Shown: one piece after another, positions 41,264 through 59,636 of the stretch
Layout of the letters: the number at the start of each line of letters is the position of its first letter
How positions within the stretch are numbered: position 1 is the first letter of the stretch
DNA from: Gammaproteobacteria bacterium
GTDB taxonomy: Bacteria; Pseudomonadota; Gammaproteobacteria; Burkholderiales; Thiobacillaceae
Direction: 5' to 3'
DNA: 64,000 nucleotides
Assembly (NCBI GenBank): GCA_018820765.1
Contig: JAHJNN010000015.1
Span: forward strand, 62,001 to 126,000
Made by a program: the position numbers and the translations under genes
The notes under the pieces: generated by a model
Told to the model about the DNA's origin: nothing
The model's input: the letters and a program-made list of their open reading frames with translations, nothing else
Databases searched by the model: none

Positions 41264-43158
41264 TGCTGCGCGCCGAACCACTCTGCAAAATCCAGCTGCT
41301 GATGCTGGCCTCCGAAGCGCAGGATGCCGCACTGGCACTGGCCCGCTTCGGCGTCTTCAACCCGGCGCCCTGTGCGCTGGAGTCGCTCGGGGAATCGCCC
41401 GCCGTCGACTATCGCGAAGCCTGGCTGGAAGCCGAGGCCCGCTTGTCGAAACTGCTGGAACAGTGCGGCGATACCGGCCCCCTGGGCATTCCGGCCGATG
41501 CCGAAGCACCGGCACTGGCCGACCTGCAGGAATTGAACCACTGGCTGAAGGATGTGTGGGTCTCCTGCCTGGCGTGTCACGATAGCGAGACGCAGATCGA
41601 GGACGCACGCAATCATCTCGTTGCCCTGGAAGAAACGCTCGCCAAGCTGGAGCGCCTGAACGTGGATCTTGCGCATCTGTTGCGCGCTGACAGCTTGCTG
41701 GCCGTCAGCATCGGCAGCCTGCCTGTGGCGGGGCTCAAGCGCGTGACCGAGGCCCTGGCCATGACCGGCCACCTGGTTTCGCGCTTCGATCAGGTGGGTG
41801 AACAGGTATTTGCGGTGATTGCCGGCCCGCGCACCCGGCAGGACGAAGTGCGCGGCGTGCTGGCGCAGGCCGGCTGGCGAGAACTGCCGGTGCCGGACGA
41901 GTTGCGCACCCATCCGCAGGCCGCGCGAACCTGGATGGAAGAAGAACGCACCCGCCTGAACATGCAATCCGGCGCGGCATGCCAGATCATGGACGGGCTG
42001 CGCGACCGGTTCGGTCCGCGTCTGCACGAAGCGCGCCTGCGCCTCGCCCTGGCGCGCCCGCTGGCCGAAGCCGCGCTGGCCGGGGTGCGTGGCAAGGGTG
42101 GGCTGGCCGCCCTGTCGGGCTGGGTTCCCAAACGTCAGCTTGACGCGCTGCGCGACACGCTGGATGGGCATTTTCACGGGCGCTTCTGGCTCGATGTCCG
42201 CGAGCCCACCGCCGGCGAAATCGCCGAAGTCCCTTCGCTGGTGCGTTATCCAGGCTGGCTCAAGCCCTTCGTGCCGCTGGTGAAAAGCTACGGCATCCCC
42301 CGTTACGGCGAGTTCGACCCGGCGCTGCCGTTCGCCTTCACCTACCTGCTGCTGTTCGGCGCCATGTTCGGCGACATCGGCCACGGTGCGGTGATCCTGC
42401 TGCTGTCTGCCGCCCTGACCCGGCGGCTCGGACGCATGGCCTGGGTGGGTATCGCAGCAGGCGCGGCATCGATGCTGTTCGGCCTCTTCTACGGCAGCAT
42501 CTTCGGCTACGAGACCCTCATCGAGCCGCTGTGGCTGTCGCCGTTGCACGACCCGATCCGCGCGCTGACCATCGCGGTGAGCTTCGGCGTCGGCTTCATC
42601 GTGTTCACGCTGCTGGTCAATGCACGCAACAAATTCATGGCCGGCCAGGTCGGCGAGGCACTGTTCGATTCCACCGGCCTGGCTGGCCTGGTGTTTTATC
42701 TGGGCGCGGTCGGCAGCGTGGTCAGCCTCGCCGGCGCAGCCGATCTTGCCCAGCCGGCTGGCGTGCTGGCAGGGATTGGCATCGTCACGATTGCAGCGTT
42801 CAAATGGGTCGAGGCCAAGGCCGGGCTGGGCGAACGGATTCTGGTGACCGCCATCGAGACGCTGGAAACCGGCATCAACCTGTTCGCCAACACCCTGTCG
42901 TTCATGCGGGTGGCGGCATTCAGCCTCAATCACGTCGCACTGGCGCTGGCGATCTTCACCCTGGCCAACGGCTTGGGTACGGCCGGCCACTGGCTCACGA
43001 TCGTGCTGGGCAATATCGTCATCATCGTGCTCGAAGGCGGCATCGTCGCCATCCAGGCGCTGCGCCTGATGTATTACGAAGGGTTCTCGCGCTTCTTCAG
43101 CGGGGACGGAACGGAATTCGTGCCGTTGCGGCTGTCGTCGCAGCAGGCCAGGGTTTGA
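41263..43158 (+). CDS. ntpI: V/A-type ATPase subunit I (a), membrane stator
   Basis: A 631-residue protein: cytoplasmic coiled-coil half to about 330, then seven predicted helices starting near AFTYLLLFGAMFGDIGHG. The final helices hold a conserved arginine (LRLMYYEGFSRFF region nearby, and SFMRVAAFSLNH) expected to face the ring glutamate. It forms the ion half-channels. Confidence 0.92.
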   Translation: MLRAEPLCKIQLLMLASEAQDAALALARFGVFNPAPCALESLGESPAVDYREAWLEAEARLSKLLEQCGDTGPLGIPADAEAPALADLQELNHWLKDVWVSCLACHDSETQIEDARNHLVALEETLAKLERLNVDLAHLLRADSLLAVSIGSLPVAGLKRVTEALAMTGHLVSRFDQVGEQVFAVIAGPRTRQDEVRGVLAQAGWRELPVPDELRTHPQAARTWMEEERTRLNMQSGAACQIMDGLRDRFGPRLHEARLRLALARPLAEAALAGVRGKGGLAALSGWVPKRQLDALRDTLDGHFHGRFWLDVREPTAGEIAEVPSLVRYPGWLKPFVPLVKSYGIPRYGEFDPALPFAFTYLLLFGAMFGDIGHGAVILLLSAALTRRLGRMAWVGIAAGAASMLFGLFYGSIFGYETLIEPLWLSPLHDPIRALTIAVSFGVGFIVFTLLVNARNKFMAGQVGEALFDSTGLAGLVFYLGAVGSVVSLAGAADLAQPAGVLAGIGIVTIAAFKWVEAKAGLGERILVTAIETLETGINLFANTLSFMRVAAFSLNHVALALAIFTLANGLGTAGHWLTIVLGNIVIIVLEGGIVAIQALRLMYYEGFSRFFSGDGTEFVPLRLSSQQARV

Positions 43159-43184
43159 TGGAATTTTTTAAAAGGGGAGTGGAC

Positions 43185-43622
43185 ATGACCTGGTTGATTG
43201 CACTGATGGTTTTACCCGTGATGGCCACGCTGGGCGCAGGACTCTGGCTGGAACTGAAGCCGCGCCGAGTGCCGGCAGGTTGGCTCAAGGGCGGCATGCT
43301 CGCCAATGTGCTGCTGTTCGGTCCGGGGTTGGCCGGCGTCATGCTGCTGGGCGTGCAGGAAGTGCTCGCGGCCGAGCCTGCCGCGGCCGGCCTGATGGGC
43401 ATCTCCATGGGCAAGGGCCTGGCATTGATCGGTATCGGTTTGCCCACCGCGCTGGCCGCCATCGGCGCTGGCATCGCGCTGGGGCCGGTGGGATCGGCCT
43501 CGCTGGCTGTGATCGCGGAAAAGCCGGAAATGTTCGGCCGCACCCTGATCTACATGGGGCTGGCAGAAGGGATCGCGATTTACGGCCTGGTCATGTCGAT
43601 CCTCCTGCTCGGCAAGATTTGA
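43185..43622 (+). CDS. ntpK: V/A-type ATPase subunit K (proteolipid rotor ring)
   Basis: A 145-residue protein with four predicted helices. Only the second hairpin (about 77-100 and 117-142) has proteolipid character; the ion-binding residue is E128 in MGLAEGIAIYG. There is no matching acidic residue in the first hairpin, so one ion site per four helices is expected. I start it at 43185 because AGGGGAG lies just upstream; an ATG at 43158 overlapping ntpI is possible but lacks a site. The coupling ion (H+ or Na+) cannot be settled from this. Confidence 0.88.
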   Translation: MTWLIALMVLPVMATLGAGLWLELKPRRVPAGWLKGGMLANVLLFGPGLAGVMLLGVQEVLAAEPAAAGLMGISMGKGLALIGIGLPTALAAIGAGIALGPVGSASLAVIAEKPEMFGRTLIYMGLAEGIAIYGLVMSILLLGKI

Positions 43623-43626
43623 GGCC

Positions 43627-43971
43627 ATGCAATCCGATATCGATCTCCCGCACGGCAGCGCTCGCCTCGTGGTACTGGGCAGCGCCGGGCTGGCTGGCGG
43701 CTTCGGTCTGATCGGCGCCGAGGTACATGCCGATGCGGATACGGCCACGGTGGAAACGGTGCTCGAGCAACTGGCGATAAGCGGCGACGAAGCGCTGGTG
43801 CTGCTGGAAACGCACCTCGCGCACACCGGCGGCTACTGGCTCGACCGCCTGCGCAACGAAGGCGGGCGCATCGTCATCACCGAACTGCCGCCGCTGCCCG
43901 CGCCGCACGATTACGCGCCCGCGGTGGACGAGGTGGTGCGGGCAGTGCTGGGGGCGGAGGCGTTGAAGTAG
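43627..43971 (+). CDS. ntpG: V/A-type ATPase subunit F
   Basis: A 114-residue protein of the CheY-like ATPase F family, which binds subunit D in the central stalk. The N-terminal strand (RLVVLGSAGLAGGFGLIGAEV) and the LVLLETHLAHTG segment fit the family. It starts 4 bases after subunit K. Confidence 0.82.
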   Translation: MQSDIDLPHGSARLVVLGSAGLAGGFGLIGAEVHADADTATVETVLEQLAISGDEALVLLETHLAHTGGYWLDRLRNEGGRIVITELPPLPAPHDYAPAVDEVVRAVLGAEALK

Positions 43972-44049
43972 AGGCAAGAAACAAGGTTCAAGATGCAAGA
44001 CGATCCATGTTGAGAATCCACTTGAATCTTGCAACTTGAACCTTGCCTC
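43971..44049. repeat. Fold-back repeat between ATPase subunits F and E
   Basis: Left arm 43971-43999 (GAGGCAAG..GGTTCAAGATGCAAG) and right arm 44021-44049 (CTTGAATCTTGCAACTTGAACCTTGCCTC region) are imperfect inverted copies around a 21-base loop. Both are built from short CAAG/TTGCAA units like those at 47908-47988. Confidence 0.65.
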
Positions 44050-44073
44050 TCAAGATTTTGTTTTGGAGAGAAA

Positions 44074-44724
44074 ATGGAAGCGGATGCGCAGGTTTCCCAA
44101 CTCGAACAGGCGCTGTTGCAGCAGGCCGAGACGCAGGCGCGCGAAGCGTTGCAGAACGCCGAATCGGCGCGCGCGCGCATCCTCGCCGAGTCGGCGGAGA
44201 AACTGAAGTTGGCCGGCGAGCGCGAGGTGCTTGCCGCCAAGATCGAGGCCGAGCGCCTGGTACGGCGGCAAACCCAGGCGTCGGAGACGCGGCTGGCCGC
44301 CGAGCTCGACCGGACGCGCTGGGCGCTGACCGAGGCCACGCTGGCCGGCGTGAAAATCGCTTTCCAGCAGTTGGTGCAGGACGAGGCGCGCTACCTCGCG
44401 GCACTCGAAGCCTGGCTGGCCGCGGCGGCGCAGACGCTGCCGCCGGGCGACCTAGTGGCGGAAGTGCGGCCCGAGGATGAAACACGGCTGGCGCCGCTGT
44501 GGGCGGAAATGGCCGCACGCGCCGCGCCCGGGCGCACGGTCGCGCTGGCTGCGCACGGCCTTCCCAGCGTGGGCGGCATCCGCGTGCGCCTGGCCGACAA
44601 TCGCGCCCGGATCGACCAGACCTTCGAGGCGCGGCAGGCACGCCTGGCCGACGAGTTGGCCCGGGTGGCGATGGAACACCTGTTCGCCAGCGCCTCCGGC
44701 CTCGGCGCGTGCATCCGCGGATAA
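44074..44724 (+). CDS. ntpE: V/A-type ATPase subunit E (peripheral stalk)
   Basis: A 216-residue protein: long N-terminal coiled coil (1-100) rich in E, A and R, then a mixed alpha-beta C-terminal domain (GLPSVGGIRVRLADNRARIDQTFEARQARLADEL) as in subunit E. The ATG at 44074 has GGAGAG upstream. Subunit A follows after 6 bases. Confidence 0.85.
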   Translation: MEADAQVSQLEQALLQQAETQAREALQNAESARARILAESAEKLKLAGEREVLAAKIEAERLVRRQTQASETRLAAELDRTRWALTEATLAGVKIAFQQLVQDEARYLAALEAWLAAAAQTLPPGDLVAEVRPEDETRLAPLWAEMAARAAPGRTVALAAHGLPSVGGIRVRLADNRARIDQTFEARQARLADELARVAMEHLFASASGLGACIRG

Positions 44725-44730
44725 CACAGC

Positions 44731-46521
44731 ATGGGAAAAATTCTCGAAATCAACGGCCCGTTGGTCAAGCTCGAACTGCCGCAGACGGTAATCGGCGAAC
44801 AGATTCGGGTCGGGCGCCAGGGGCTGGTCGGCGAGGTGATCGGCCGCGACGGCGACACTGCGCTGGCGCAGCTGTACGAGGACACCGCCGGCCTGCGCCC
44901 CGGCGAGACGGCGGAAGGGCTGGGCTGGCCGCTGTCGGTCGAACTGGGTCCGGGCCTGCTGGGCGCCATCTTCGACGGCGTGCAACGGCCGCTGCTGGCA
45001 ATGCGGGCACGGAGCGGCGACCGCATTGCGCGCGGGGTGGCGGTGCCTGCGCTGCCGCGCGACAAGGCCTGGCATTTCGTACCCGACCCGGCGCGCCAAG
45101 CCGGCGGGTCGCTGGCGGGCGGCGACGTGCTCGGCACCGTGCAGGAAACCGAGTCGATCCGGCACCGTATCCTCACCCCGCCGCTGATCCAGGGCGAGTT
45201 GCTGGAACTGGCGCCGGAAGGCGATTACACGCTCGACGAAGCGATCGGCCGGGTGAAGCTGGCCGACGGCCATATCGAGAAGCTGCAGCTGTTCCATCGC
45301 TGGCCGGTGCGCACGCCACGCCCATTCCGGCAACGCGACCACGCGGTGGCACCGCTGATCACCGGGCAGCGCATCCTCGACACCTTCTATCCCTTGCTGA
45401 AGGGCGGCAAGGCCGCGATTCCCGGCCCCTTCGGCGCCGGCAAGACCATGCTGCAGCAGCAGATCGCGCGCTGGTGCAACGCCGAGATCGTCATCTACGT
45501 CGGTTGCGGCGAGCGCGGCAACGAACTCACCGACGTGCTCGAATCCATGCCCGAGCTGAAAGATCCCCACAGCGGCCGCCCGCTGATGGAGCGCACCCTG
45601 CTGGTGGCCAACACCTCCAACATGCCGGTGGTGGCGCGCGAGGCCTCGATCTATGTCGGCATCACGCTGGCCGAATATTTCCGCGACCAGGGTTACGACG
45701 TGGTGATGGTGGCCGACTCCACCAGCCGCTGGGCGGAAGCACTGCGCGAAGTCGCCGGACGGCTCGGCCAGATGCCGGTGGAGGAGGGCTATCCGGCCTA
45801 TCTCGGCTCGCGCCTGGCCGCCTTCTACGAGCGCGCCGGCCGAGTCGAAACGCTGGCCGGCGACCACGGCTCGGTGACGCTGATCGGCGCCGTGTCGCCG
45901 CCCGGCGGCGACTTCTCCGAGCCGGTCACCAGCCACACCAAGGAAATCATCCAGACCTTCTGGGCGCTGTCGAAGGAACTCGCCGACGCCCGCCATTACC
46001 CGGCGGTGGACTGGCTGGAAAGTTTCTCCGGCTACGTCAGTTCCGCTGCGAAGTGGTGGGCGCAACACGTTGATCCGAATTGGGAAAGCGCGCGCGCCGA
46101 GGCGCTCGACCTGCTCGCCGCATCGGAAGAGTTGCAGCGCATCGTCAATCTGGTCGGGGTCGAAGCGCTGTCAAGCGAACAGCGCTGGACGCTGGAAGCG
46201 GCGGGGCTCATCAAGGAGGGTCTGTTGCAGCAGTCGGCCATCGACGAAGTCGACAGCTTTGCCTCGCCGGAGAAACAATTCGCGCTGCTGGCGGCACTGC
46301 TGGAGATTTATCGCCAGGGCATGAAGCTGGTGAAGCTCGGCGCGCCGGCGCGGCGCCTGATCCAGATGCCGCTGCTGGCGCAGGCACGGCGCTGGAAAAG
46401 CCAGCACAGCTCGGACGATATCGCTGCGCTGAAAGCGAAAATTGCCGCCATCCCGGCTGCCTTCGAGCCGCTACTGCAGGAATATGCCGCCCCCTCGACC
46501 CCGAGGGAGGCCTCGTCATGA
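44731..46521 (+). CDS. ntpA: V/A-type ATPase catalytic subunit A
   Basis: A 596-residue catalytic subunit. The P-loop GPFGAGKT is at about 232-239, the catalytic glutamate lies in GCGERGNEL near 260, and the long non-homologous insert that separates V/A-type A from F-type beta is present before the P-loop. SYTDSTSRWAEALREVAGR-type motif reads MVADSTSRWAEALRE. It works with subunit B as the A3B3 head. Its TGA overlaps the start of subunit B by four bases. Confidence 0.96.
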   Translation: MGKILEINGPLVKLELPQTVIGEQIRVGRQGLVGEVIGRDGDTALAQLYEDTAGLRPGETAEGLGWPLSVELGPGLLGAIFDGVQRPLLAMRARSGDRIARGVAVPALPRDKAWHFVPDPARQAGGSLAGGDVLGTVQETESIRHRILTPPLIQGELLELAPEGDYTLDEAIGRVKLADGHIEKLQLFHRWPVRTPRPFRQRDHAVAPLITGQRILDTFYPLLKGGKAAIPGPFGAGKTMLQQQIARWCNAEIVIYVGCGERGNELTDVLESMPELKDPHSGRPLMERTLLVANTSNMPVVAREASIYVGITLAEYFRDQGYDVVMVADSTSRWAEALREVAGRLGQMPVEEGYPAYLGSRLAAFYERAGRVETLAGDHGSVTLIGAVSPPGGDFSEPVTSHTKEIIQTFWALSKELADARHYPAVDWLESFSGYVSSAAKWWAQHVDPNWESARAEALDLLAASEELQRIVNLVGVEALSSEQRWTLEAAGLIKEGLLQQSAIDEVDSFASPEKQFALLAALLEIYRQGMKLVKLGAPARRLIQMPLLAQARRWKSQHSSDDIAALKAKIAAIPAAFEPLLQEYAAPSTPREASS

Positions 46522-47903
46522 AAAACATCGAATTCCGCACCGCCAGCTCCGCCCAGGGCGGCCTCGTCGTGATGGCCGGCGTGCCCGGCGTGGCGGCCGG
46601 TTCGCGGGTGCAGCTGCGCGACCACGCCGGCCGCGTGCGTTCCGGTCTGGTGATCCGCTCGGCCGACGACGCGGTGCTGGTGGAAGTGTTCGAGGGCACC
46701 GACGAACTCGATCTCGAGCGCACCTGGGTGCGCTTCCTCGACGAGCCCTTCAAGCTGCCGTTGTCGCGCGACATCCTCGGCCGCGTATTCAACGGCGCCG
46801 GCCTGCCGCGCGACGGCCGGCCGCCGGTGATTTCCGCCGACCGTCGCGACGTCAACGGCGAACCGCTCAACCCGGCGGCGCGCGCCTATCCGCGCGAATT
46901 CATCCAGACCGGCATCTCCGCGATCGACGGCATGAATTCGCTGACGCGCGGACAGAAGCTGCCGATTTTTTCCGGCGGCGGCCTGCCGCACAACCGGGTG
47001 GCGGCGCAGATCGTGCGCCAAGCCAAGCTCCTGGGCGAGGAGGCCGCTGAATTCGTGGTGGTGTTCGCCGCCTTCGGCGCCTCGCATGCCGATGCGCGCT
47101 TCTTCCAGGAAAGCTTCGAAGAGTCCGGGGTGTTGAACAAGGTGGTGATGTTCCTGAATCTCGCCGACGAGCCGGTGATCGAACGCCTGCTGACGCCGCG
47201 CGCGGCGCTCACCGCGGCCGAATACCTGGCCTTCGACCTCGACTACCACGTACTGGTGGTGATGACCGACATGACCGCTTACGCCGAAGCCTTGAGGGAA
47301 GTCGCGGTGCTGCGCGGCGACGTACCGGCGCGCAAAGGCTATCCGGGTTATCTCTATTCGGATCTGGCCGAAATCTACGAGCGGGCAGGGCGCATCAAGA
47401 ACCGGCGCGGCTCGATCACGATGATCCCGGTGCTGTCGATGCCGTCCGACGACATCACCCACCCGATTCCCGACCTCAGCGGCTACATCACCGAGGGCCA
47501 GATCGTGCTCGGGCGCGAGCTTTCCAACCAGGGCGTGTACCCGCCGGTGACCGTGCTGCCGTCACTGTCGCGTCTGATGAAGGACGGCATCGGCAAGCAC
47601 TTCACCCGCGAGGACCATCCGCATGTCGCCAGCCAGCTGTTCGCCAGCTATGCCAAAGCGCTGGAAGTGCGGGGGCTGGCCGCCATCATCGGCGCCGAGG
47701 AATTGTCCGACGCCGACCGCCGCACCCTGGCGTTCGCCGACGCCTTCGAGTGCCGTTTCATCGGGCAGGGCGAGGACGAGGACCGCAGCATCCATGAAAC
47801 ACTGAACCTCGCGTGGGAACTGCTCTCGATGCTGCCGCCGGACGCGCTGACCCGCGTGTCGGAAGAGGAGCTGGCTAAATATCACAAGGGCGGGGAAGCG
47901 TGA
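46518..47903 (+). CDS. ntpB: V/A-type ATPase subunit B (non-catalytic)
   Basis: A 461-residue nucleotide-binding-fold subunit. It has the FQTGISAIDGMNSLTRGQK block and IPVLSMPSDDITHPIPDLSGYITEGQI and lacks a true P-loop (SGGGLPHN in its place), as usual for subunit B. The ATG at 46518 overlaps the stop of subunit A. Confidence 0.96.
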   Translation: MKNIEFRTASSAQGGLVVMAGVPGVAAGSRVQLRDHAGRVRSGLVIRSADDAVLVEVFEGTDELDLERTWVRFLDEPFKLPLSRDILGRVFNGAGLPRDGRPPVISADRRDVNGEPLNPAARAYPREFIQTGISAIDGMNSLTRGQKLPIFSGGGLPHNRVAAQIVRQAKLLGEEAAEFVVVFAAFGASHADARFFQESFEESGVLNKVVMFLNLADEPVIERLLTPRAALTAAEYLAFDLDYHVLVVMTDMTAYAEALREVAVLRGDVPARKGYPGYLYSDLAEIYERAGRIKNRRGSITMIPVLSMPSDDITHPIPDLSGYITEGQIVLGRELSNQGVYPPVTVLPSLSRLMKDGIGKHFTREDHPHVASQLFASYAKALEVRGLAAIIGAEELSDADRRTLAFADAFECRFIGQGEDEDRSIHETLNLAWELLSMLPPDALTRVSEEELAKYHKGGEA

Positions 47904-47907
47904 GAAA

Positions 47908-47988
47908 GATGCAAGTTACAAGTTGCAAGTTGCAAGAAAAAACAGGCGGTTGCGTCCTCCATGCAACTTGCAACTTGCGACTTGAAAC
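47908..47988. repeat. Fold-back TTGCAAC repeat between ATPase subunits B and D
   Basis: Left arm 47908-47936 (units of AAGTTGC) and right arm 47960-47988 (units of GCAACTT) are near-perfect inverted copies with a loop of about 23 bases. Each arm holds three or four short tandem units. The structure fills most of the gap between ntpB and ntpD. Confidence 0.75.
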
Positions 47989-48009
47989 TGCCGAGTGCCG
48001 GAGGCCGAG

Positions 48010-48630
48010 GTGAAAAAACGCCTCCCCGTCCCCCCCACCAAAAGCGCGCTGCTGCAGGTCGGCCGCCAGGCGCGTTTTCTGGAGCAGGGCCGGCAGATGC
48101 TGGAGAAGAAGCGCGACCTCTTGACCCGCCTGGTGTATGAGCGGCTGGCGCAATACCGCGAGCTGCGCGCGCAGACCCAGCGCGAACTGGCCGAAGCCTA
48201 TCGCTGGCTCGGCATCGTGCAGATGCGCATGGGCGGGCAGATGCTGCACCAGGCCTCGGTGGGCCTCAGGCCGGCGGTGGCGATCCGGGTGGTGGCGCGT
48301 TCCAGCGTTGGCGTCGAATACCCCAGCGTGACGGCCGAGCCGCTGCCGCTGCAGCCGGTGGGGCTGATGTGGACCGACGTCAGCTTCGACGAGGCGCGCT
48401 TGCGCCTGCGCGAATTGACGGTGACGCTGGCGCGGCTGGGCGAGGCGGAGAATGCCCTGTGGCGCCTGCTGGCCGCCAGCCGCAAGACGCAGAAGCGCGT
48501 CAACGCGCTGAAGTACAACATCATTCCGCGATACCAGGCGACGGTGGCCCACATCCGCGCCGCGCTGGAGGAGGACGAACGCAACACGCTGTTCCAGATC
48601 AAGGTGCTGCGCGCACGCAAGACGGGATGA
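48010..48630 (+). CDS. ntpD: V/A-type ATPase subunit D (central stalk)
   Basis: A 206-residue coiled-coil rotor shaft protein. The PPTKSALLQVGRQARFLEQG opening and the RVNALKYNIIPRYQATVAHI C-terminal helix are diagnostic for subunit D. I use GTG at 48010, with GGAGG 5 bases before it; a GTG at 47995 is possible but has no site. It completes a nine-gene set (G/H-C-I-K-F-E-A-B-D). Confidence 0.93.
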   Translation: MKKRLPVPPTKSALLQVGRQARFLEQGRQMLEKKRDLLTRLVYERLAQYRELRAQTQRELAEAYRWLGIVQMRMGGQMLHQASVGLRPAVAIRVVARSSVGVEYPSVTAEPLPLQPVGLMWTDVSFDEARLRLRELTVTLARLGEAENALWRLLAASRKTQKRVNALKYNIIPRYQATVAHIRAALEEDERNTLFQIKVLRARKTG

Positions 48631-49612: not shown

Positions 49613-49846
49613 TCGTTTCATCCTCGATGGGGGTTGCCGTTCACCCGGGGTGCAGCGACAGGGTCCGGCCGTTGCGGCTGATGGACATGCCCAGTTTAGG
49701 TCAAGTTTTTTCAGCGCATGCGGGCGTGCCTTTTATTCAATTTCATGGAACCATCACAGCGCGGTCATACATCTTGGGAACAATGCACAGCGCGACATCC
49801 CTTGTCGCCTTGTCTTTTTCCAAATACCGTTCCAGGAGAGTTTTCA

Positions 49847-51244
49847 ATGAAGAAGTCCACGCTTGCCCTGACCCTGGTCGCTGCCTTTGCGGCCAATGTC
49901 CACGCGGATTCCGTCGTAAACGGCCCGATGTCGTTCAATCCCATTGCCGGTTCCGCCTACGGCCTGGAAGCCGACCCCAGCATCGCCACCGAACCCTGGG
50001 TCATTCCCCAGGGCTATGTCCAGTCCATCGTCTCCGACGAGACCGACCTCGACATCTATGTCGCCAACGACTGGAACGACATGAACACCGTCAACGAGAC
50101 CGGCAAGCACGCCGGCCGTTACATGTACCGCACGCATGAAGTGCGCGGCGGCGCCATCGGCGACGACCGCAACTCCGCCCGCGTCGACGGTGGCAGCGGC
50201 GGCGCCGTGTCGGTGGTCGACCTGAAGACCGGATTGTCCAAAGAAGTCGTTGGCCGGGCCGACTGGGAAGCGCTCGACGGCATCGTCTGGACGCCGTGGC
50301 GCACGGTCCTGTTCGCCGAAGAGGCCGGCACCGCCGCGCGCCCCGATCCCGATGCGCCGCAAGCCCAGGCCGGCCTGGTATACGAACTCAAGCTGGACAA
50401 GCGTGATCCCATGTCATTTGAGAGCGTGGCCGTGCGTCCGCTGCTCGGCGCGCTGGCCCACGAAGGCATCGAGATCGACGCCGAAGGCAACGTCTACGTC
50501 ATCGACGAAGACCGCAAGGGTTCCATCTACAAGTTCGTGCCGGAAAACTACGGCGATCTCTCCAGCGGCCAGCTGTATGCCCTGCGCGTGATGAACGGCG
50601 CCAAGACCGGCGCGGCCGAGTGGGTCGCGCTCGACATGACCCAGGCCCAGATCAAGGCCCACGCGGCCGCGACTGCGGTCGGCGCCACCGAGTTCTGCCG
50701 CCCCGAAGACCTCGAGCGCATCGACAGCACCCTGTACGTGGCGCTGACCTGCGAGGATGTCAACAACGCCGCCAACACCAGCGGTCAGGGTGCGGTCATG
50801 GCCATCGAGCTGGGTGAACAGCCTGTCGTCAGCTATGTTGTCGCTGCCGGCAAGAACGCCCCGCTGGAGGTCAAGCCCTCAGTCGACGCCAACGGCAACG
50901 CCGTGCCCGGTGTAACCGGTTTCAAGGGCCCGGACAACCTGGCCAACGGCCCGGATGGCAAGCTGTGGATCGTCGAAGACAACGCCTTCAGCGACATCTG
51001 GGTGTACGACCCGCGTTCCAAGGACGCCAACCAGGACGGCTACCGTGACGGCGTGCACCTGTTCGCCTCGCTCAAGGACAAGCCGGCCGAAGGCACCGGC
51101 ATCTACTTCGGCAAGGATTCCCACACCCTGTTCGTCAACGTGCAGCATTCCGGCACCGGCAACGACAAGACCATGGCCATCACCAAGCAGCACAAGGGCC
51201 ATGACAAGCATCACAAGGAAGGTCACAAGCATCACGACGACTGA
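49847..51244 (+). CDS. PhoX-like (DUF839) secreted phosphatase-type protein with His-rich tail
   Basis: A 465-residue exported protein. A Sec-type signal (MKKSTLALTLVAAFAANVHA) precedes a beta-propeller-like domain with repeated acidic motifs (GIEIDAEGNVYVIDEDRKGSIYKFV, GPDNLANGPDGKLWIVEDN) matching the PhoX/DUF839 family of Ca- and Fe-dependent phosphatases. No Tat motif is present, unlike classical PhoX. The last 20 residues hold 9 histidines, suggesting metal binding. AGGAGAG precedes the ATG; a strong terminator follows. Phosphatase activity is a family inference only. Confidence 0.8.
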   Translation: MKKSTLALTLVAAFAANVHADSVVNGPMSFNPIAGSAYGLEADPSIATEPWVIPQGYVQSIVSDETDLDIYVANDWNDMNTVNETGKHAGRYMYRTHEVRGGAIGDDRNSARVDGGSGGAVSVVDLKTGLSKEVVGRADWEALDGIVWTPWRTVLFAEEAGTAARPDPDAPQAQAGLVYELKLDKRDPMSFESVAVRPLLGALAHEGIEIDAEGNVYVIDEDRKGSIYKFVPENYGDLSSGQLYALRVMNGAKTGAAEWVALDMTQAQIKAHAAATAVGATEFCRPEDLERIDSTLYVALTCEDVNNAANTSGQGAVMAIELGEQPVVSYVVAAGKNAPLEVKPSVDANGNAVPGVTGFKGPDNLANGPDGKLWIVEDNAFSDIWVYDPRSKDANQDGYRDGVHLFASLKDKPAEGTGIYFGKDSHTLFVNVQHSGTGNDKTMAITKQHKGHDKHHKEGHKHHDD

Positions 51245-53011: not shown

Positions 53012-53518
53012 CTACTTGGCCCCCTTGGCAGGCCTTCCGGTCTTGATGACTTCGAGACGGCGAATGGCGGCAACCACCGAGGCGTCGCTCAGCTTTGCCA
53101 GTCCGACCACGGCCGCGCGCAGGATCTCGCTTTTCTTTGCGGAGACGCCCGCATTCAGGCAACGCTTCTTCAGCGATGCGATAAGGGCATATTCGGTTTC
53201 CGGCATGGTGAAACTATCGCGAACCAGCTTGACCTTTTTCGCCTTGGCTGGCTTGCCGCCTTTCTCGGTGGAAGCCGGTTTGGCTGCCTGCGCGGCTTTC
53301 TTTGCCGGAGCCGGTTTCGGCGCTGCCGCCGGCCGCGTACCAGCCTTCTTCGGTGCGACCGGTGTCCGTTTGCTGGCGGGTTTCGAAGCCGCCGGCTTGG
53401 CGGTTCGGGTGGTGCGTCTCTTGACGGCCGGCTTGGCTGTTTGAGGCTTGCCGGCGGTGGCACTCTCGGCGAGCACTGCGGAAGTCGTTGGGGCGGGGTT
53501 CTTGGTGTCGTCGGCCAT
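53012..53518 (-). CDS. Histone H1-like Lys/Ala/Pro-rich basic protein
   Basis: A 168-residue protein. Residues 20-95 are low-complexity, made almost only of K, A, P, T, R and S (KPAASKPASKRTPVAPKKAG), like AlgP or bacterial H1-like proteins that bind DNA. The C-terminal 70 residues are ordered (RDSFTMPETEYALIASLKKR..KKSEILRAAVVGLAKLSD), with a pattern that could be a ribbon-helix-helix-type DNA-binding unit. I infer nucleoid or regulatory DNA binding. It is divergent from the gene pair at 53653. Confidence 0.75.
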   Translation of the reverse strand: MADDTKNPAPTTSAVLAESATAGKPQTAKPAVKRRTTRTAKPAASKPASKRTPVAPKKAGTRPAAAPKPAPAKKAAQAAKPASTEKGGKPAKAKKVKLVRDSFTMPETEYALIASLKKRCLNAGVSAKKSEILRAAVVGLAKLSDASVVAAIRRLEVIKTGRPAKGAK

Positions 53519-53652
53519 GGGATTCTCCTCGGTGTAATAAACGGAGTATTCAGTTTATATAGTTTATTGGTTCATACAAGTGTCGTTCGCCCTGCTTGCG
53601 GCTGTCATAAATTTTTCATGATATTTGAATGCGACAAGCGTATTTTTTTCGA

Positions 53653-55575
53653 ATGACGGAAAAGAACCGCATCCTGAATTCGCTGAACGAGCAGGTCCTG
53701 CTGCTGCCGAGCCTGGTCAATCGCGCGCTTGCCGCGAATGATCGCGTCAAGTACCGCTTTACCCTGCTGCAGGCCGCCCGGGCCCATGCCGAGCGTCCGG
53801 ACGAAGTGACTTCAAGCCTGCGTGCCGAGCGCCTGGCCGCAGGCGTGCAGGACGGTAGTCTGGATCGCGTGGTCGGAGATTCCGAGCGGCTCGGGAAGGG
53901 GCGTTACCGCGTGCCGGAATCGGCGCGCATCGTCGGGGACGCGCTTTCCGACGTGTCCGAAATGCTCGAGCCGCTGCGCGCGGCCGGCACACCGGAAAGC
54001 GCGGGGTTTGCGCAGCGCCTGCAGGCGGTTGCCGTTCCGGAGTCGGGCGGCGACGAACTCACGGCCGACGCGATTCATGCCATCACCTCGGGAGACCGGG
54101 AGGCGGGGGACAGTCTCCACCTTCTGGTGATGGACATGCACCGGGCCCTGAATGCGCTGCAGGCGAGTCTGGCCAGCGAGACCATTGACGGCTGCCGTGC
54201 CTATGGCATCGGCGACACCGACCGGGGGCTGATTGCCGCGTTCATGGAGGGCATCAACCGCACCGCGCCGCTCAAGTTCGATCACCCCGGCCTGGCGGCC
54301 ACCGCAACCCACGTGGACGACAAGCTTGTCCTGCAAAACGACATCGGCACCACCGATGCGCACGTGCTGGTGATCCATGTCACCGGCCGCAGCGTGACCG
54401 TGACCTATACTGACGTCCACCTGCCGCGCCTGCTGTTTTTCCAGAGCTTGTTCGAAGGTTACGAGGTGAAGTGGCAGGACACACGCTCGCGCAAGGACGC
54501 GGGAATGGAAGACGGCGTCTACCATCTTTGCGTCGGAACTTACAGCGCGCGCAGCAATGCCCAGCTGCGCGAGTATTTGGGCCATCTCGGCTCGCGGCTG
54601 GTGTTCCTCATCGACTGGAACCGTGCGCGCAAGCGCCTGCGCCTGTTCGTTCCGCGCAAGGCCGCCATCGACCTGCTCAAGTGGGCGGCCGACGCCAACA
54701 TCGGCCACATGGCCTGGCTCAAGGCCGGCGGCGAGCAGTTGATTTTCGACGCCATGAGCTTCGCCTACGGCGGGCAGCTCAAGCCGGGCGACCGCCTTGA
54801 CAGCCTGCTCACGGAAAGCCGCGCGGTGCAGTTTCTGCGCTTCAACCTGAAGCAGGCGCTCGAAGGGCTGACGCAGGGCCGGCCGGCCTCGCTGGTGGCG
54901 GACGAAATCCGCACTGAGTTGGCCTCCCAGGTGCGCTCCAGCGAGGACGCCTTGCTGGACACGGCGCTCGAGCATGCCGGTCTGATTGTCGAGCTGGCCG
55001 ATACGGTGCGCGCCGCGCTGGAGGCGGCGCAGGCCGGGCACCAGCATGAGGTGACCGCCATGGCGGAACGGGCCAAGGATTGGGAGACGGCAGCCGACCG
55101 CGAATTGAACAGCGCCCGCAGCACCCTGCTGGAAGGCGACAATTTCATGCTGCAGCTGATGAGCGAGGCCGACGACATCGCCGACGATCTGGAAGAAGCG
55201 GTGTTTCATATCACGCTCTCGCCCAGCGCGCCCGCCACGTCGATTTCCGCGCTGGGCAAGCTGGTCGATCCGGTTGCCAATGCGAGCCGCGAACTGGTCA
55301 AGGCGCTGGCCGCATCGCGGCATGCGCGGCGCGGCGTGCCGCGCGAGGACATGGACGATTTCCTGCAGGCGGTCCACGCCATCCGCACCATGGAGCATGC
55401 GAGCGATCTGGCCGAGCGCGAAGTCAAGCGCACCTTGGCAGGCGATCCCCGGCCTTTCGCCGAGGTGTTCGGCGTGGCCGAGGCGGCGCGCAATCTCGAA
55501 GAAGCCGCGGACGGCCTGATGCACGTCGCCCTGCTGCTGCGCGACCATGTGATGGGCAAGGTGATCCATGCCTAA
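53653..55575 (+). CDS. Large protein of unknown function with PhoU/DUF47-like C-terminus
   Basis: A 640-residue soluble protein. The N-terminal 100 residues are helical (MTEKNRILNSLNEQVLLLPSL), the middle (about 190-390) is a mixed alpha-beta domain (HVLVIHVTGRSVTVTYTDVHLPRLLFFQSLFEGYEV and RLVFLIDWNRARKRLRLFVPRK), and the last 230 residues are long helices (ALLDTALEHAGLIVELADTVRAAL, FMLQLMSEADDIADDLEEAV, IRTMEHASDLAEREVKRTL) reminiscent of PhoU or DUF47. The next gene starts inside its last codons, so the two products probably act together. No known function. Confidence 0.75.
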   Translation: MTEKNRILNSLNEQVLLLPSLVNRALAANDRVKYRFTLLQAARAHAERPDEVTSSLRAERLAAGVQDGSLDRVVGDSERLGKGRYRVPESARIVGDALSDVSEMLEPLRAAGTPESAGFAQRLQAVAVPESGGDELTADAIHAITSGDREAGDSLHLLVMDMHRALNALQASLASETIDGCRAYGIGDTDRGLIAAFMEGINRTAPLKFDHPGLAATATHVDDKLVLQNDIGTTDAHVLVIHVTGRSVTVTYTDVHLPRLLFFQSLFEGYEVKWQDTRSRKDAGMEDGVYHLCVGTYSARSNAQLREYLGHLGSRLVFLIDWNRARKRLRLFVPRKAAIDLLKWAADANIGHMAWLKAGGEQLIFDAMSFAYGGQLKPGDRLDSLLTESRAVQFLRFNLKQALEGLTQGRPASLVADEIRTELASQVRSSEDALLDTALEHAGLIVELADTVRAALEAAQAGHQHEVTAMAERAKDWETAADRELNSARSTLLEGDNFMLQLMSEADDIADDLEEAVFHITLSPSAPATSISALGKLVDPVANASRELVKALAASRHARRGVPREDMDDFLQAVHAIRTMEHASDLAEREVKRTLAGDPRPFAEVFGVAEAARNLEEAADGLMHVALLLRDHVMGKVIHA

Positions 55576-57178
55576 GGGAAGGAGCAAGCCTGCCGCGCGG
55601 CTCCCCGTCTTCGACCTGAATGGCCGCGACGGCGTGCCGGACGCGCGTCTCGCCGGCTTCAAGGCGCACAACCTGATCCGCATGGCGGCCATGGGACTGC
55701 CGGTGCCGCAGGGCTTCGTCATGTCGACCGACTGGTGCGCTGCCGTCAGCAATGGCGACGGCGCGAAGACGCATCTGTCGGCGGCGCTGCAATCCGGCAT
55801 CCGCGATCTGGAGCGCGTGAGCGGCCTGGGATTCGGCAGCGCACGCCGCCCGCTGCTGGTGTCGGTTCGCTCGGGCGCGGCGGTTTCCATGCCGGGCATG
55901 ATGGAAACCGTGCTTAACGTCGGGCTCAACGAGGTCTCGCTGGCGGGGTTGTTGCGGCTGACCGGCGACCATCGGCTGGTGTGGGATTCCTATCGCCGCC
56001 TGATCCAAGCCTTCGCCGAGATCGTTGCCGACGCGCCGGCCGCACCATTCGAGGCCGCGCTCGACGCTGCCCTGCGCCGAAGCGGGACCGACAATGCCAG
56101 GCAGTTGGATTTCCGCGCCCTGCGCGATCTTGCCCAGACCTATCTCGCGCTGTATCGCGAACACACTGGGCGCGATTTTCCGCAGGACCCGTTCGAGCAG
56201 CTGGCCGCCTCGACCCATGCCGTGTTCGCTTCCTGGATGTCGGACAAGGCGGTCGAATACCGCCGCCTGAATGCGCTGGTGGAGGACCCCGGTACCGCCG
56301 TGACCGTCCAGCGCATGGTGTTCGGCAATGCCGGCGGCAACTCCGGCGCGGGCGTCGGCTTCACCCGTGACCCCTCGACCGGAGAAAACCGCCCCTACAT
56401 CGACTGGCTGGCCCGGGCGCAGGGTGAGGACATCGTTTCGGGACGACGCCGCGTTGCGGCGGAGATCGACGTTCCCGGCTGGCTCATGCACAAGCTCGCC
56501 AGCGTCGGCGAATCCCTCGAAAGGGCTTTCCGGGATGCCCAGGAATTCGAATTCACCGTCGAAAACGGCGAACTGTTCATGCTGCAAACCCGCGCCGCCA
56601 AACGCACTGCGCTTGCATCGCTGCGCATGGCCGTCGACCAGGTCGAAAGCGGCCTCATCACTGTGGACGAAGCGCTGGACAGGCTGTCCGGAATCGATAT
56701 CGACGCCATCACCATCCGGCGCGTCCAATCCGACCAGCCTCCCCTCGGGCAGGCCATTCCGGCCGGAACCGGCGTGGCCCAAGGCCCCGCCGCCTTTTCC
56801 ATCCAGGCTGCCCAGGCCTTTGCCGAGCGCGGCACCCCCGCCATCCTGGTCCGCAACGAAATTGCCACCAGCGACATCGCCGGCATCGCAGTTGTCAATG
56901 GGGTGCTCACCGCCACCGGCGGACGCACCTCCCATGCCGCCGTGGTCGCACGCCAAATGGGCAAGGTCTGTCTCGTCGGCTGTATCGACCTGCACGTCGA
57001 CGAAAGCGCCAAACAGGCTACGCTGGGGCAAGCCCTCCTGTCCGAAGGCGAGCCCCTCTGCCTCGATGGCGATGCCGGCACCATCTACGCCGGTTCTCCC
57101 GGAATCGCCAGCGAACGCCCCGAGACCCTGATAGCCAGCGTCCGGGAATGGCTCACCCGCGCGCGTCTTGGCGCGTAG
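55568..57178 (+). CDS. Truncated pyruvate phosphate dikinase-like protein (ATP-grasp plus His domain)
   Basis: A 536-residue protein that matches the first two thirds of PPDK/PEP synthase: ATP-grasp domain (LLVSVRSGAAVSMPGMMETV at about 96-115; NAGGNSGAGVGFTRDPSTG at 254-272) and the swivelling phosphohistidine domain with H456 in GGRTSHAAVVAR. The C-terminal pyruvate/PEP barrel of about 350 residues is absent and the frame ends cleanly, with no remnant after it. It could phosphorylate its histidine from ATP but has no own acceptor site; the partner encoded at 53653 may supply it. Overlap with that gene is 8 bases. Confidence 0.85.
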   Translation: MPKGRSKPAARLPVFDLNGRDGVPDARLAGFKAHNLIRMAAMGLPVPQGFVMSTDWCAAVSNGDGAKTHLSAALQSGIRDLERVSGLGFGSARRPLLVSVRSGAAVSMPGMMETVLNVGLNEVSLAGLLRLTGDHRLVWDSYRRLIQAFAEIVADAPAAPFEAALDAALRRSGTDNARQLDFRALRDLAQTYLALYREHTGRDFPQDPFEQLAASTHAVFASWMSDKAVEYRRLNALVEDPGTAVTVQRMVFGNAGGNSGAGVGFTRDPSTGENRPYIDWLARAQGEDIVSGRRRVAAEIDVPGWLMHKLASVGESLERAFRDAQEFEFTVENGELFMLQTRAAKRTALASLRMAVDQVESGLITVDEALDRLSGIDIDAITIRRVQSDQPPLGQAIPAGTGVAQGPAAFSIQAAQAFAERGTPAILVRNEIATSDIAGIAVVNGVLTATGGRTSHAAVVARQMGKVCLVGCIDLHVDESAKQATLGQALLSEGEPLCLDGDAGTIYAGSPGIASERPETLIASVREWLTRARLGA

Positions 57179-57288
57179 TTGGGGGAGGCCTGAAGGACGG
57201 GGGAAATATTGCCGGTGGGCGCCATAATAAAAAAGATATTATTGTCTACAATGCAAGCCCGGGAGGGTTTGAATGCGGAGGCGACCCG

Positions 57289-57504
57289 ATGGTCACATCA
57301 AACCATATCGAGTTGGAACCGGTACATCTCAGCGCAATCCAGGCGCTCGCCAACGAGACGCACCAGCCGGTGGACGACGTCAACAGGATCTACATCGAAA
57401 CCTTCGAAAGGCTTAACTCGGACGCGCGAATCAAGGATTTTCTGATCCTGCTCACCAGCAAGACTGTGCGCGACGAGCTGCGTCACCCGCGACCGGGCGC
57501 GTAG
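57289..57504 (+). CDS. DUF3562-family small protein
   Basis: A 71-residue protein with the DUF3562 pattern (ALANETHQPVDDVNRIYIETFERLNSDARI..FLILLTSKTVRDEL). Function unknown; the fold is probably three helices. GGAGGC lies just upstream of the ATG at 57289. The preceding 110 bases include an AT-rich stretch with a TACAAT -10-like hexamer (57247-57252), so it may have its own promoter. Its stop is 15 bases from that of dsrA, which converges on it. Confidence 0.8.
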   Translation: MVTSNHIELEPVHLSAIQALANETHQPVDDVNRIYIETFERLNSDARIKDFLILLTSKTVRDELRHPRPGA

Positions 57505-57519
57505 TCCCGGTCACCGGCT

Positions 57520-58824
57520 TCAGGCCGCGTTCTGCTTGTACTCGACCCACTTGGCGACCTGCTCGTCCCAGTCGTCGGAACGGAAGTAGGGATTGGAGCG
57601 TGGCTCCTTGATCATGTTGGGATCGATCGGGATGTCCATGCCTTCGAGGAAATTGGCCAGCCCGATGCGCTCGATCATTTCGCCGGTGCGCTCGTGATCC
57701 AGCGCGTTTTCGGCGAAGAAGTCGAGGACGTTGCGCGCCAGCTCGTTCAGCTTCTCGAAGTCCTCGTCGGACTCAAGCTTCATGAACGGAATCACCACGG
57801 TGCCCAGGGTGGCGCCGATCTTCAGCACGCCCTTGCCGCCCACCAGGATGGTGACGCCCTTGTCCTTGCCGGGCAAAAGCCCCCCGGGGATGACGTTCAG
57901 GCAGTGCATGCAGCGCACGCAGTTCTTGTTGTCGATGCACAGGGTGTTGCCGTCGCCCAAGCTGGCAGCGGAGACATGCTCGCTGGCCTTGAACTGGCTG
58001 GAGGGCACCACCGTGATGGCCTTGGTCGGACAGCGCCCGACCACGTCGTTGTAGAGGTCGTGCATGCCGTGCACCTTGTAGTAGTCCTGCACCTGTTCCT
58101 CGTTGACGCGGATGTTGTCGCGCCAGGTGCCGATGGTGGCCATGTCGGAACGCTGGATGGCGTTGACGCAGTCGTTCGGGCAGCCGGAGAACTTGAACTT
58201 GAACTTGTAGGGCAGGGACGGACGGTGCATGTCGTCCAGGTTGTTGTTGATGACGGTGCGCAGCGCGCGCGCCTCGTCGAAACAGGACATTTCGCAGCGC
58301 GCCGAGCCGACGCAGGACATCGAGGTGCGCAGCGCAGGACCGGCGCCGCCGAGGTCGAAGCCCATTTCGTTGAGGCCGTCGAATGCCTTCTGCACATTCG
58401 CGCTGCTGATGCCCTGGAACATGATGTCGCCCGATTGGCCATGGAAGGCAATCAGGCCGGAGCCGCCGCTGTCGACCCAGACGTCGCACAGCTTGCGCAA
58501 CAGGTCGGAGGAGTAGTGCATGCCGGCCGGCGGCTGCACGCGCAGGGTGTGGAATTCGGCCGCTTCGGGAAACAGCGGCTTGCCGGCCTCGTCCTTCAGT
58601 TCGGTAAAGCGCGGAATGATGCCGCCGCCGTAGCCGAACACGCCGACCGTGCCGCCTTTCCAGAAGCCCTTTCGGGTTTCGTAGGAGGTTTCCAGCTGAC
58701 CCAGCAGGTCAACCATCATGTCGTTATCTTTGGCCAGACGCTTGAGGCCGCTCACGAAGCTGGGCCAGGGGCCGCTCTCGAGCTGGTCGAGCATGGGAGT
58801 GTCACGGATCGTGCGCGTAGACAT
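57520..58824 (-). CDS. dsrA: Dissimilatory sulfite reductase alpha subunit, orphan
   Basis: A 434-residue siroheme protein. The siroheme-[4Fe-4S] cysteines are C171 and C177 (C-X5-C) with C215 and C219 (C-X3-C); the inserted ferredoxin domain has C265 and C302-X2-C305-X2-C308, closely matching archaeal and bacterial DsrA numbers. In sulfur oxidisers the enzyme runs in reverse, oxidising sulfur carried by DsrC. No dsrB or other dsr gene is adjacent: the next gene downstream is DUF3562 on the other strand, and upstream is a response regulator. AAGGAA precedes the ATG at 58824. Whether it pairs with a DsrB encoded elsewhere is open. Confidence 0.92.
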   Translation of the reverse strand: MSTRTIRDTPMLDQLESGPWPSFVSGLKRLAKDNDMMVDLLGQLETSYETRKGFWKGGTVGVFGYGGGIIPRFTELKDEAGKPLFPEAAEFHTLRVQPPAGMHYSSDLLRKLCDVWVDSGGSGLIAFHGQSGDIMFQGISSANVQKAFDGLNEMGFDLGGAGPALRTSMSCVGSARCEMSCFDEARALRTVINNNLDDMHRPSLPYKFKFKFSGCPNDCVNAIQRSDMATIGTWRDNIRVNEEQVQDYYKVHGMHDLYNDVVGRCPTKAITVVPSSQFKASEHVSAASLGDGNTLCIDNKNCVRCMHCLNVIPGGLLPGKDKGVTILVGGKGVLKIGATLGTVVIPFMKLESDEDFEKLNELARNVLDFFAENALDHERTGEMIERIGLANFLEGMDIPIDPNMIKEPRSNPYFRSDDWDEQVAKWVEYKQNAA

Positions 58825-58940
58825 GGCAGTTCCTTTCAAGAAAATGAAAGACACAACCCAGTCTAGGCAATACTTGAGTGATTTTCTCGGGATTACGCCA
58901 AATGGGTAGGGTGCGGCTCCCCTAAAAGGCGTGCATGGGA

Positions 58941-59636
58941 TCAGACCGCATGCAGGATGATGACGCGAATGACCAGATTCCCCTGAAGATCGGTTGCGGC
59001 GCATTGACGGGCATCGAGCATGCTGCCGCTGGCCGGCGCCTGGAAACGAAAATCCCCGCCCGCACTTGCAGCAGCGTACGCATCGGGCCCGAACAGCGCG
59101 CTTAAATCGAACGGGCCGACAGGCGAAGGCCGGCCCAGCAGCGCGCTGGCCAGGGGCGAGAGGCCGAGTATCTTCCACGCCGGGTCGGCGATCACCACGG
59201 CACCGGGCAGCTGCGGCAGGATGCCGCCGCGCGCGCTTTGCGCCAGCGCCAGGCTGGCCTGGAGGCGGGCCAGCAGTTCCTTGCGGTTGAAGGGCTTGCT
59301 GATGAAATCGGTGGCACCGGCCTCGATGCCGCGGATGCGCTCTTCCGGCAGCGACAGGGCGGTGACCATGATCACCGGCAGGGCGGAAAACTCGGGATCG
59401 CGCCGCACCGTCTGGCACACCTCGTAGCCCGTCATGCCAGGCATGCGCACGTCCAGCACCATGGCGTCCGGTTTTTCCCGCCGCAGGATGTCCAGGGCTT
59501 CGGGCCCGCTGCCGGCTTCCAGCACCTGGTATCCGGCGTCCTTGAGGATCAGGCGCAGCAGCTTCACGTTCGGCGGGGCGTCGTCGACCACCAGGACCGT
59601 CGCCCCGACTGCACCAGGCAAACCTTCCTCAGGCAT
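58941..59636 (-). CDS. Response regulator with C-terminal PAS-like domain
   Basis: A 231-residue protein: receiver domain (about 12-130; acidic DD in LVVDDAP, phospho-acceptor D in AMVLDVRMPGM, switch K in ISKPFN) followed by a short PAS-like segment (LPGAVVIADPAWKILGLSPLASALLG). No DNA-binding output is present. The start overlaps the end of the preceding regulator by 8 bases. dsrA begins 116 bases after its stop on the same strand. Confidence 0.88.
   Translation of the reverse strand: MPEEGLPGAVGATVLVVDDAPPNVKLLRLILKDAGYQVLEAGSGPEALDILRREKPDAMVLDVRMPGMTGYEVCQTVRRDPEFSALPVIMVTALSLPEERIRGIEAGATDFISKPFNRKELLARLQASLALAQSARGGILPQLPGAVVIADPAWKILGLSPLASALLGRPSPVGPFDLSALFGPDAYAAASAGGDFRFQAPASGSMLDARQCAATDLQGNLVIRVIILHAV

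Follow-up and report, generated by a model that had tools for sequence, protein, structure and literature searches.

A pair of overlapping genes in a 64,000-nucleotide stretch of DNA (the window) from a Gammaproteobacteria bacterium of the Thiobacillaceae (contig JAHJNN010000015.1) was found to be a conserved two-gene module, and not a result of chance or decay. Judged from its sequence, the product of the second gene, P2, is the ATP-grasp and phosphohistidine half of pyruvate phosphate dikinase (PPDK), with nearly all of the catalytic residues kept and without the phosphoenolpyruvate (PEP)/pyruvate barrel. The product of the first gene, P1, consists of a domain of about 410 residues without a Pfam family, followed by a DUF47/PhoU-like helical bundle. 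The two genes are tightly linked, and the module P2s form a group of their own in a tree. We consider it moderately probable that P1 and P2 together make up one PPDK-derived phosphotransfer enzyme of two components, in which P1 supplies the acceptor site in trans, because of the tight linkage, the kept residues, the precedent of the barrel-less dikinase VadK of Mycobacterium tuberculosis, and a partner-like domain that appears fused at the position of the barrel in two VadK-type frames.

A dikinase half and its partner

The sequence-only reading of this DNA had proposed an overlapping two-gene module, and the module is real: the genes overlap by 8 bases and are conserved and tightly linked. 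The open reading frame (ORF) of P1 opens at 53629, and the start was set at the ATG at 53653 (MTEK...) because it agrees with the start in relatives. Compared with four relatives, the ratio of nonsynonymous to synonymous substitution rates (dN/dS) was 0.08-0.15 for P1 and 0.12-0.21 for P2, and both genes are therefore under purifying selection, which excludes chance or decay.

Features of the gene pair and of its surroundings (window coordinates)
Feature	Position	Strand
P1, partner protein of 640 aa, with an N-terminal domain of unassigned type and a C-terminal DUF47/PhoU-like bundle	53653..55575	+
P1 residues 1-410: N-terminal domain, with no Pfam family and no significant fold match in the PDB	53653..54882	+
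P1 residues 153-163: pattern D-S-x-H-x6-H, common to VadK-type partner proteins	54109..54141	+
P1 residues ~437-640: DUF47/PhoU-like helical bundle	54961..55575	+
P2, 536 aa: barrel-less PPDK	55568..57178	+
P2 ATP-grasp region, residues ~27-350, with K32, R101, R143, E326, E328, Q340, R342	55646..56617	+
P2 phosphohistidine (swivel) domain, residues ~393-510	56744..57097	+
H456 codon, predicted phospho-carrier	56933..56935	+
V/A-type ATPase subunit genes (V_ATPase_I, two ATP-synt_ab, ATP-synt_D by Pfam)	41263..48630	
PhoX-type alkaline phosphatase (PF05787)	49718..51244	
Small Lys/Ala-rich histone H1-like protein	53012..53518	-
DUF3562 protein	57148..57504	
Nitrite/sulfite-reductase-family protein	57520..59418	-

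In P2, an ATP-grasp domain and a phosphohistidine, H456, had been claimed to be kept and the protein to end cleanly before the barrel, and this is borne out by the alignments. P2 aligns to positions 16-510 of the 865 of the PPDK model TIGR01828 (8.2e-154) and then stops, it matches residues 17-509 of the C. symbiosum-type PPDK structure 9pzl (E 1.3e-118, about 400 bits), and its N-terminal 510 residues share 38-45% identity with the full-length PPDKs used for comparison. Pfam places PPDK_N and PEP-utilizers domains in P2, with no match to PEP-utilizers_C (PF02896). H456 is aligned with the PPDK phosphohistidine (H455, C. symbiosum numbering) and is histidine in all 55 aligned module P2s, as R101, R143, E328, Q340, R342 and T454 are also invariant; K32 is found in 54 of the 55. 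At the position of PPDK Asp321 the module P2s are divided between D (28/55) and E (27/55), the P2 of the window having E326. The PPDK residues K22, R92, D321, E323, Q335 and R337 (C. symbiosum numbering) are those which we take to have catalytic roles. P2 thus resembles the N-terminal half of PPDK with catalytic residues kept except for Glu at the Asp321 position, and differs from PPDK in being without the barrel and in the separate tree group of the module P2s.

A separately encoded PEP barrel that completes a normal PPDK had been named beforehand as the observation to speak against such a module, and it was found neither in the window's own genome nor at 89 module loci, where a PPDK barrel query gave no match among the ORFs. 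The genome (3.44 Mb in 18 contigs, estimated 99.98% complete) has only two PEP-utilizers_C matches, one in a PtsI-like protein of 574 aa and one in a PEP synthase of 808 aa (both named from sequence), and the same two proteins carry its only other two PEP-utilizers domains. The presence of these two barrels could be taken to mean that P2 belongs to a split PPDK completed in trans by PtsI or PEP synthase. We find this barely credible and reject it, as both barrels belong to proteins with phosphohistidine domains of their own and none was matched at the module loci. Furthermore, among the matches listed there are five genomes (our genomes G309, G471, G601, G698 and G273) that have both the module and an open frame as long as a full PPDK, and the module is therefore no replacement for PPDK.

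P1 had been described as PhoU-like, which holds for its C-terminal third, with its DUF47 profile and PhoU-like fold matches, and not for the other 410 or so residues. The match of the window's P1 to PF01865 (PhoU_div/DUF47) has an E-value of 0.0012 and 18.7 bits against a gathering score of 24.4; among 60 P1 relatives a DUF47 match at E<=0.1 is found in 45 (best 4.1e-11), and every other family among the 23 matched is found in at most two members. Confident AlphaFold2 models were obtained for the whole of P1 (predicted local distance difference test, pLDDT, 90.7; predicted template-modelling score, pTM, 0.74) and for residues 1-410 (pLDDT 89.7, pTM 0.77). In Foldseek the first 16 places for the whole model are all taken by PhoU/DUF47 structures, with E<=0.001 in one case, and the template-modelling (TM) score against 2iiu/2olt is 0.76 by target length; this table is without an aligned range, and the profile match to the PhoU/DUF47 fold spans residues 473-641. 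By sequence, the PDB relatives of P1 are limited to one PhoU-like protein, matched at the C-terminus only. For residues 1-410 no PDB fold match falls under E 0.001, the best being 0.023 with a TM score below 0.2 by query length, and weak matches to YbjN/AmyR (E 0.19-0.5) are not believed. Six histidines of P1 (H156, H163, H211, H237, H256 and H352) are invariant in 60/60 relatives, and the N-terminal domain also has several invariant Asp, Asn and Arg residues. P1 thus appears to be like the DUF47/PhoU_div proteins (2olt, 2iiu, 3l39) in its C-terminal bundle, and differs from them in the added domain of about 410 residues without a known relative and in being tied to a dikinase.

If the two proteins function as one enzyme, ATP would be bound by the grasp domain of P2 and the phosphoryl group loaded onto H456 as in PPDK, upon which AMP and probably pyrophosphate (PPi) would be released. 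P2 would then form a complex with P1, which would give the second site in trans and so replace the fused PEP/pyruvate barrel, and the phosphoryl group would pass to P1 or to its substrate: the N-terminal domain of P1 may accept it directly or bind the small molecule that accepts it. Sensing or binding of phosphate or metal is the probable role of the DUF47/PhoU-like bundle.

Linkage and distribution of the module

Absence of co-occurrence of the two genes in other genomes had also been named as an observation that would speak against the module; counted from the P1 side, the two families do co-occur. A P1-alignment scan of 84,980 species genomes gave 462 relatives, of which the best 80, those most like the P1 of the window, were taken for loci, and with three loci found otherwise (L043, L046, L047) this makes 83 P1 loci. 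In 80 of the 83, P2 follows P1 directly downstream on the same strand (72 complete and 8 cut by the sequence end), and at the other three (L072, L075, L091) the contig ends within P1 or 125 bases past it. Among the 72 complete P2s, 70 measure 526-569 aa, and the spacing of the two genes is -8 to +130 bases, leaving aside one mis-set start (L128); neither this P2 start nor the short P2 of L085 is trustworthy. The P1 profile matched seven of the 398 genomes of a phylum sample, three of them only in the DUF47 part, and P2 was alongside all four full-length P1s. Further module genomes came from later tests (G698, G674, G273).

The carriers belong to several bacterial phyla and to the archaeal Methanomicrobiales and Nitrososphaerota, and include Thiobacillus, Zoogloea, Accumulibacter, Anaeromyxobacter, Planctomycetes, Methanoculleus, Methanolinea, Methanospirillum and Nitrososphaeraceae, some of the labels of metagenome-assembled genomes being possibly misbinned. 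In a class sample of 185 genomes P1 was found in the window's own genome only, and it was found in 9 of 100 relatives, of which 8 were among 56 genomes of the genus. Plasmid-borne copies are present in Methylocella tundrae and Aquabacterium olei. In the plasmid annotations seen, P1 is called 'DUF47 family protein' or 'phosphate transport regulator' and P2 'PEP/pyruvate-binding domain-containing protein'. One same-genus genome has P1 as fragments only (L044 and L045, on contig C113 of G216), and of two plasmid records of Methylocella tundrae one (NZ_LR536451, L048) shows several short annotated genes in this region; in both cases the module may be broken or mis-assembled.

This patchiness (8/56 genus genomes, one with fragments only), the presence on plasmids and the varying neighbour genes would fit a defence, toxin-antitoxin or mobile cargo module. 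However, the PADLOC models gave no match for P1 or P2 at E<=0.1, the dN/dS values are low and the methanogen P2s cluster with one another in the tree described below, so that a defence role was set aside and this explanation as a whole is considered very improbable.

VadK and the two-component dikinases

The closest published case is VadK (Rv1127c) of M. tuberculosis, a barrel-less PPDK for which autophosphorylation on His422, an action on the methylcitrate cycle and interaction with methylcitrate-cycle enzymes have been reported (PMC12636432). Rv1126c has been termed the 'operonic partner' of VadK, with better solubility on co-expression, and a 2 M NaCl wash is reported to have served to separate the two (PMC13400623). 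The sequence-only reading had suggested a possible undescribed system, and this stands only in part: P2 groups away from the VadK-type proteins and has another partner, but a barrel-less PPDK with an operonic partner has already been published. Among the papers searched, none combines 'DUF47' with 'pyruvate phosphate dikinase' and none brings together three or more of the terms PhoU domain, PEP-utilizing, phosphohistidine and polyphosphate, and the terms 'dikinase', 'DUF47' and 'CHAD' are absent from the accessible text of a paper on archaeal polyphosphate (PMC6864096).

Like P2, VadK has the ATP-grasp and phosphohistidine domains of PPDK, no barrel and an adjacent partner gene of its own, and the residues corresponding to the swivel-histidine autophosphorylation reported for VadK are kept in P2. 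The two differ in their grouping and in their partners. A quick maximum-likelihood tree was made from 140 sequences (73 module P2s, 63 full-length PPDKs, these being frames >850 aa, and 4 VadK-type proteins); it is unrooted, several long branches were flagged, it has no mycobacterial row, and L037, L038, L040, L041, incomplete P2s and P2s outside 500-600 aa were left out. The 73 module P2s lie on one side of a branch with a Shimodaira-Hasegawa-like approximate likelihood ratio test (SH-aLRT) value of 99, and the four VadK-type rows form a separate group (SH-aLRT 100). Against the VadK family model NF004531 the P2 of the window scores 396-397 bits, under the cut-off of 456, and six other module P2s score 421, 442, 460, 452, 439 and 430 bits, one of them above it, compared with 661-707 bits for VadK-type proteins; the cut-off is a weak criterion because full-length PPDKs pass it too.

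The VadK-type partner is a small winged-helix/helical protein of about 190-250 aa, in contrast to the 640-residue P1 with DUF47, and P1 is absent from 4/4 VadK-type genomes examined (G091, G259, G282, G691). Its gene is often adjacent to VadK-type genes, found via NF004531, as in L031 and L166. Two genomes from the order to which the window belongs (L167 in G282 and L168 in G259) have a partner-like domain in the same frame at the C-terminus of the VadK-type protein, where the barrel would sit. Among plasmid records 19 match the partner, and a PPDK-like gene adjoins it in 7 of the 9 loci fetched (not in L191 and L195), the four annotated ones measuring 506-579 aa. From gene order alone we infer that Rv1126c is of the winged-helix/helical partner type, and the adjacent or fused partners of VadK-type proteins therefore suggest that it is a functional part of VadK and not just a neighbour. 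The partner genes are annotated as MarR, transcriptional regulator or hypothetical (L031, L166, L189-L197). In L189 (a Rhodococcus oxybenzonivorans plasmid), L192 and L197 the VadK-type genes adjoin genes annotated as PEP-utilizing enzyme, and L189 also has AMP-binding, biotin/lipoyl and biotin-carboxylase genes; such surroundings look less like a methylcitrate locus than like clusters for the catabolism of small molecules.

The C-terminus of the VadK-type partner aligns with P1 residues ~91-172, where both have D-S-x-H-x6-H, the D being absent in one of 12 partners, and the hhalign score of 29.4 exceeds the 25.8 reached at most by 300 decoys, of which 299 were column shuffles and one was a reversal. 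Several points weigh against P1 as the acceptor component. The likeness between P1 and the VadK-type partner is distant, at an hhalign probability of about 5% (P 0.008), the motif was spotted before it was put to the test, the N-terminal domain of P1 offers no fold relative to argue from, and the linkage rests on the best 80 of the 462 P1 relatives. P1 could instead serve as a regulator, or as a chaperone or scaffold.

Regulation is the usual role of DUF47/PhoU folds. Together with the reported autophosphorylation of VadK and its interaction with methylcitrate-cycle enzymes, this would be consistent with a VadK-like regulatory histidine kinase, in which P2 would act on metabolic enzymes by phosphorylating or binding them and P1, as a subunit for targeting or regulation, would sense phosphate via the bundle and not accept the phosphoryl group. 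We regard this as a possible but rather unlikely explanation, as P2 groups away from the VadK-type proteins and the P1 N-terminal domain, in which six histidines and further polar residues are invariant, goes beyond the needs of a scaffold.

The favoured two-component enzyme has a parallel in the aromatic dikinases HpeHI, CreHI and PpsAB, in which ATP-dependent dikinase chemistry is likewise reported to be spread over two proteins and a swivel histidine carries the phosphoryl group. In these the split is described as lying between the grasp domain alone and a swivel/substrate domain of the rifampin-phosphotransferase type, whereas P2 joins grasp and swivel and the partner P1 appears to have another fold. 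The swivel domain resides in P2, and PF00391 is not among the matches of the window's P1 or of the 60 P1 members.

Neighbouring genes and a phosphate lead

ORF clustering yielded P1, P2 and shadow frames in most loci and no generally conserved third gene, other clusters being found in nine loci or fewer. Pfam tallies of the nearest neighbours are scattered (98 scanned of 359 chosen); PF00300 (histidine phosphatase) matches three of the 98, and a motif search for SixA-type phosphohistidine phosphatases in the 359 found none. In the window the V/A-type ATPase genes lie upstream of the module, and the alkaline phosphatase gene ends 2.4 kb upstream of P1. The histone H1-like gene is divergent from P1 and its product has no Pfam match; look-alikes precede P1 in L047, L049, L050 and L051, possibly by low-complexity similarity only. 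The DUF3562 gene directly follows P2 and is not a general neighbour in the ORF clustering, and the reductase-family protein encoded after the module is DsrA-like.

Phosphate or polyphosphate metabolism is the best lead to the acceptor, and it comes from one archaeal class. In 149 genomes of this class PPK1 (PF02503) is present in 29/29 with P1 and in 66/120 without it (Fisher P 5e-7, kinship not corrected for), and it lies within 10 kb of P1 in six of the 29, in differing orientations. Genes for PPK1, Ppx or CHAD are found within the fetched flanks of 7 of the 83 loci (L050, L052, L062, L092, L096, L098, L105), some of the assignments being by BLAST only, and in Methanolinea (L098) PPK1, CHAD and Ppx run upstream of P1-P2 on the same strand. 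These observations and the phosphate-related, DUF47-like fold suggested for P1 by modelling would agree with a polyphosphate/pyrophosphate enzyme, interconverting ATP (or AMP and PPi) and polyphosphate via the phosphohistidine with P1 holding the polymer. On the other hand, 4 of 28 module genomes examined have no PPK1 match, three of the four being Nitrososphaerota, and the 64-kb window has no match for PPK1, Ppx or CHAD; a PPK2 motif search in the ORFs of the module loci also found none. When the three nearest genes per side were counted in 80 loci, a Ppx/CHAD cluster was found in five, as was a gyrase-like cluster (named from sequence and surely unrelated), and the neighbour counts alone are weak because they equal this yardstick. 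The weight of the polyphosphate explanation thus comes mainly from the PPK1 co-occurrence, and we consider it unlikely. Its broader form, a new PPDK-derived class in bacteria and archaea in which the barrel is replaced by a new-fold partner acting on phosphate polymers and ATP, AMP-PPi and polyphosphate are interconverted, is a tentative suggestion of decidedly low probability.

It seems that a conserved two-gene system is present across several bacterial phyla and two archaeal lineages under generic annotations in plasmid records. The domain of P1 is now defined, and phosphate or polyphosphate is offered as a lead to its role. The comparison also suggests that the operonic partner of VadK belongs to the mechanism of VadK. 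If the two-component enzyme proposed here is true, the phosphoryl-loading half of PPDK would have found new use on more than one occasion, with partner proteins in the place of the barrel.

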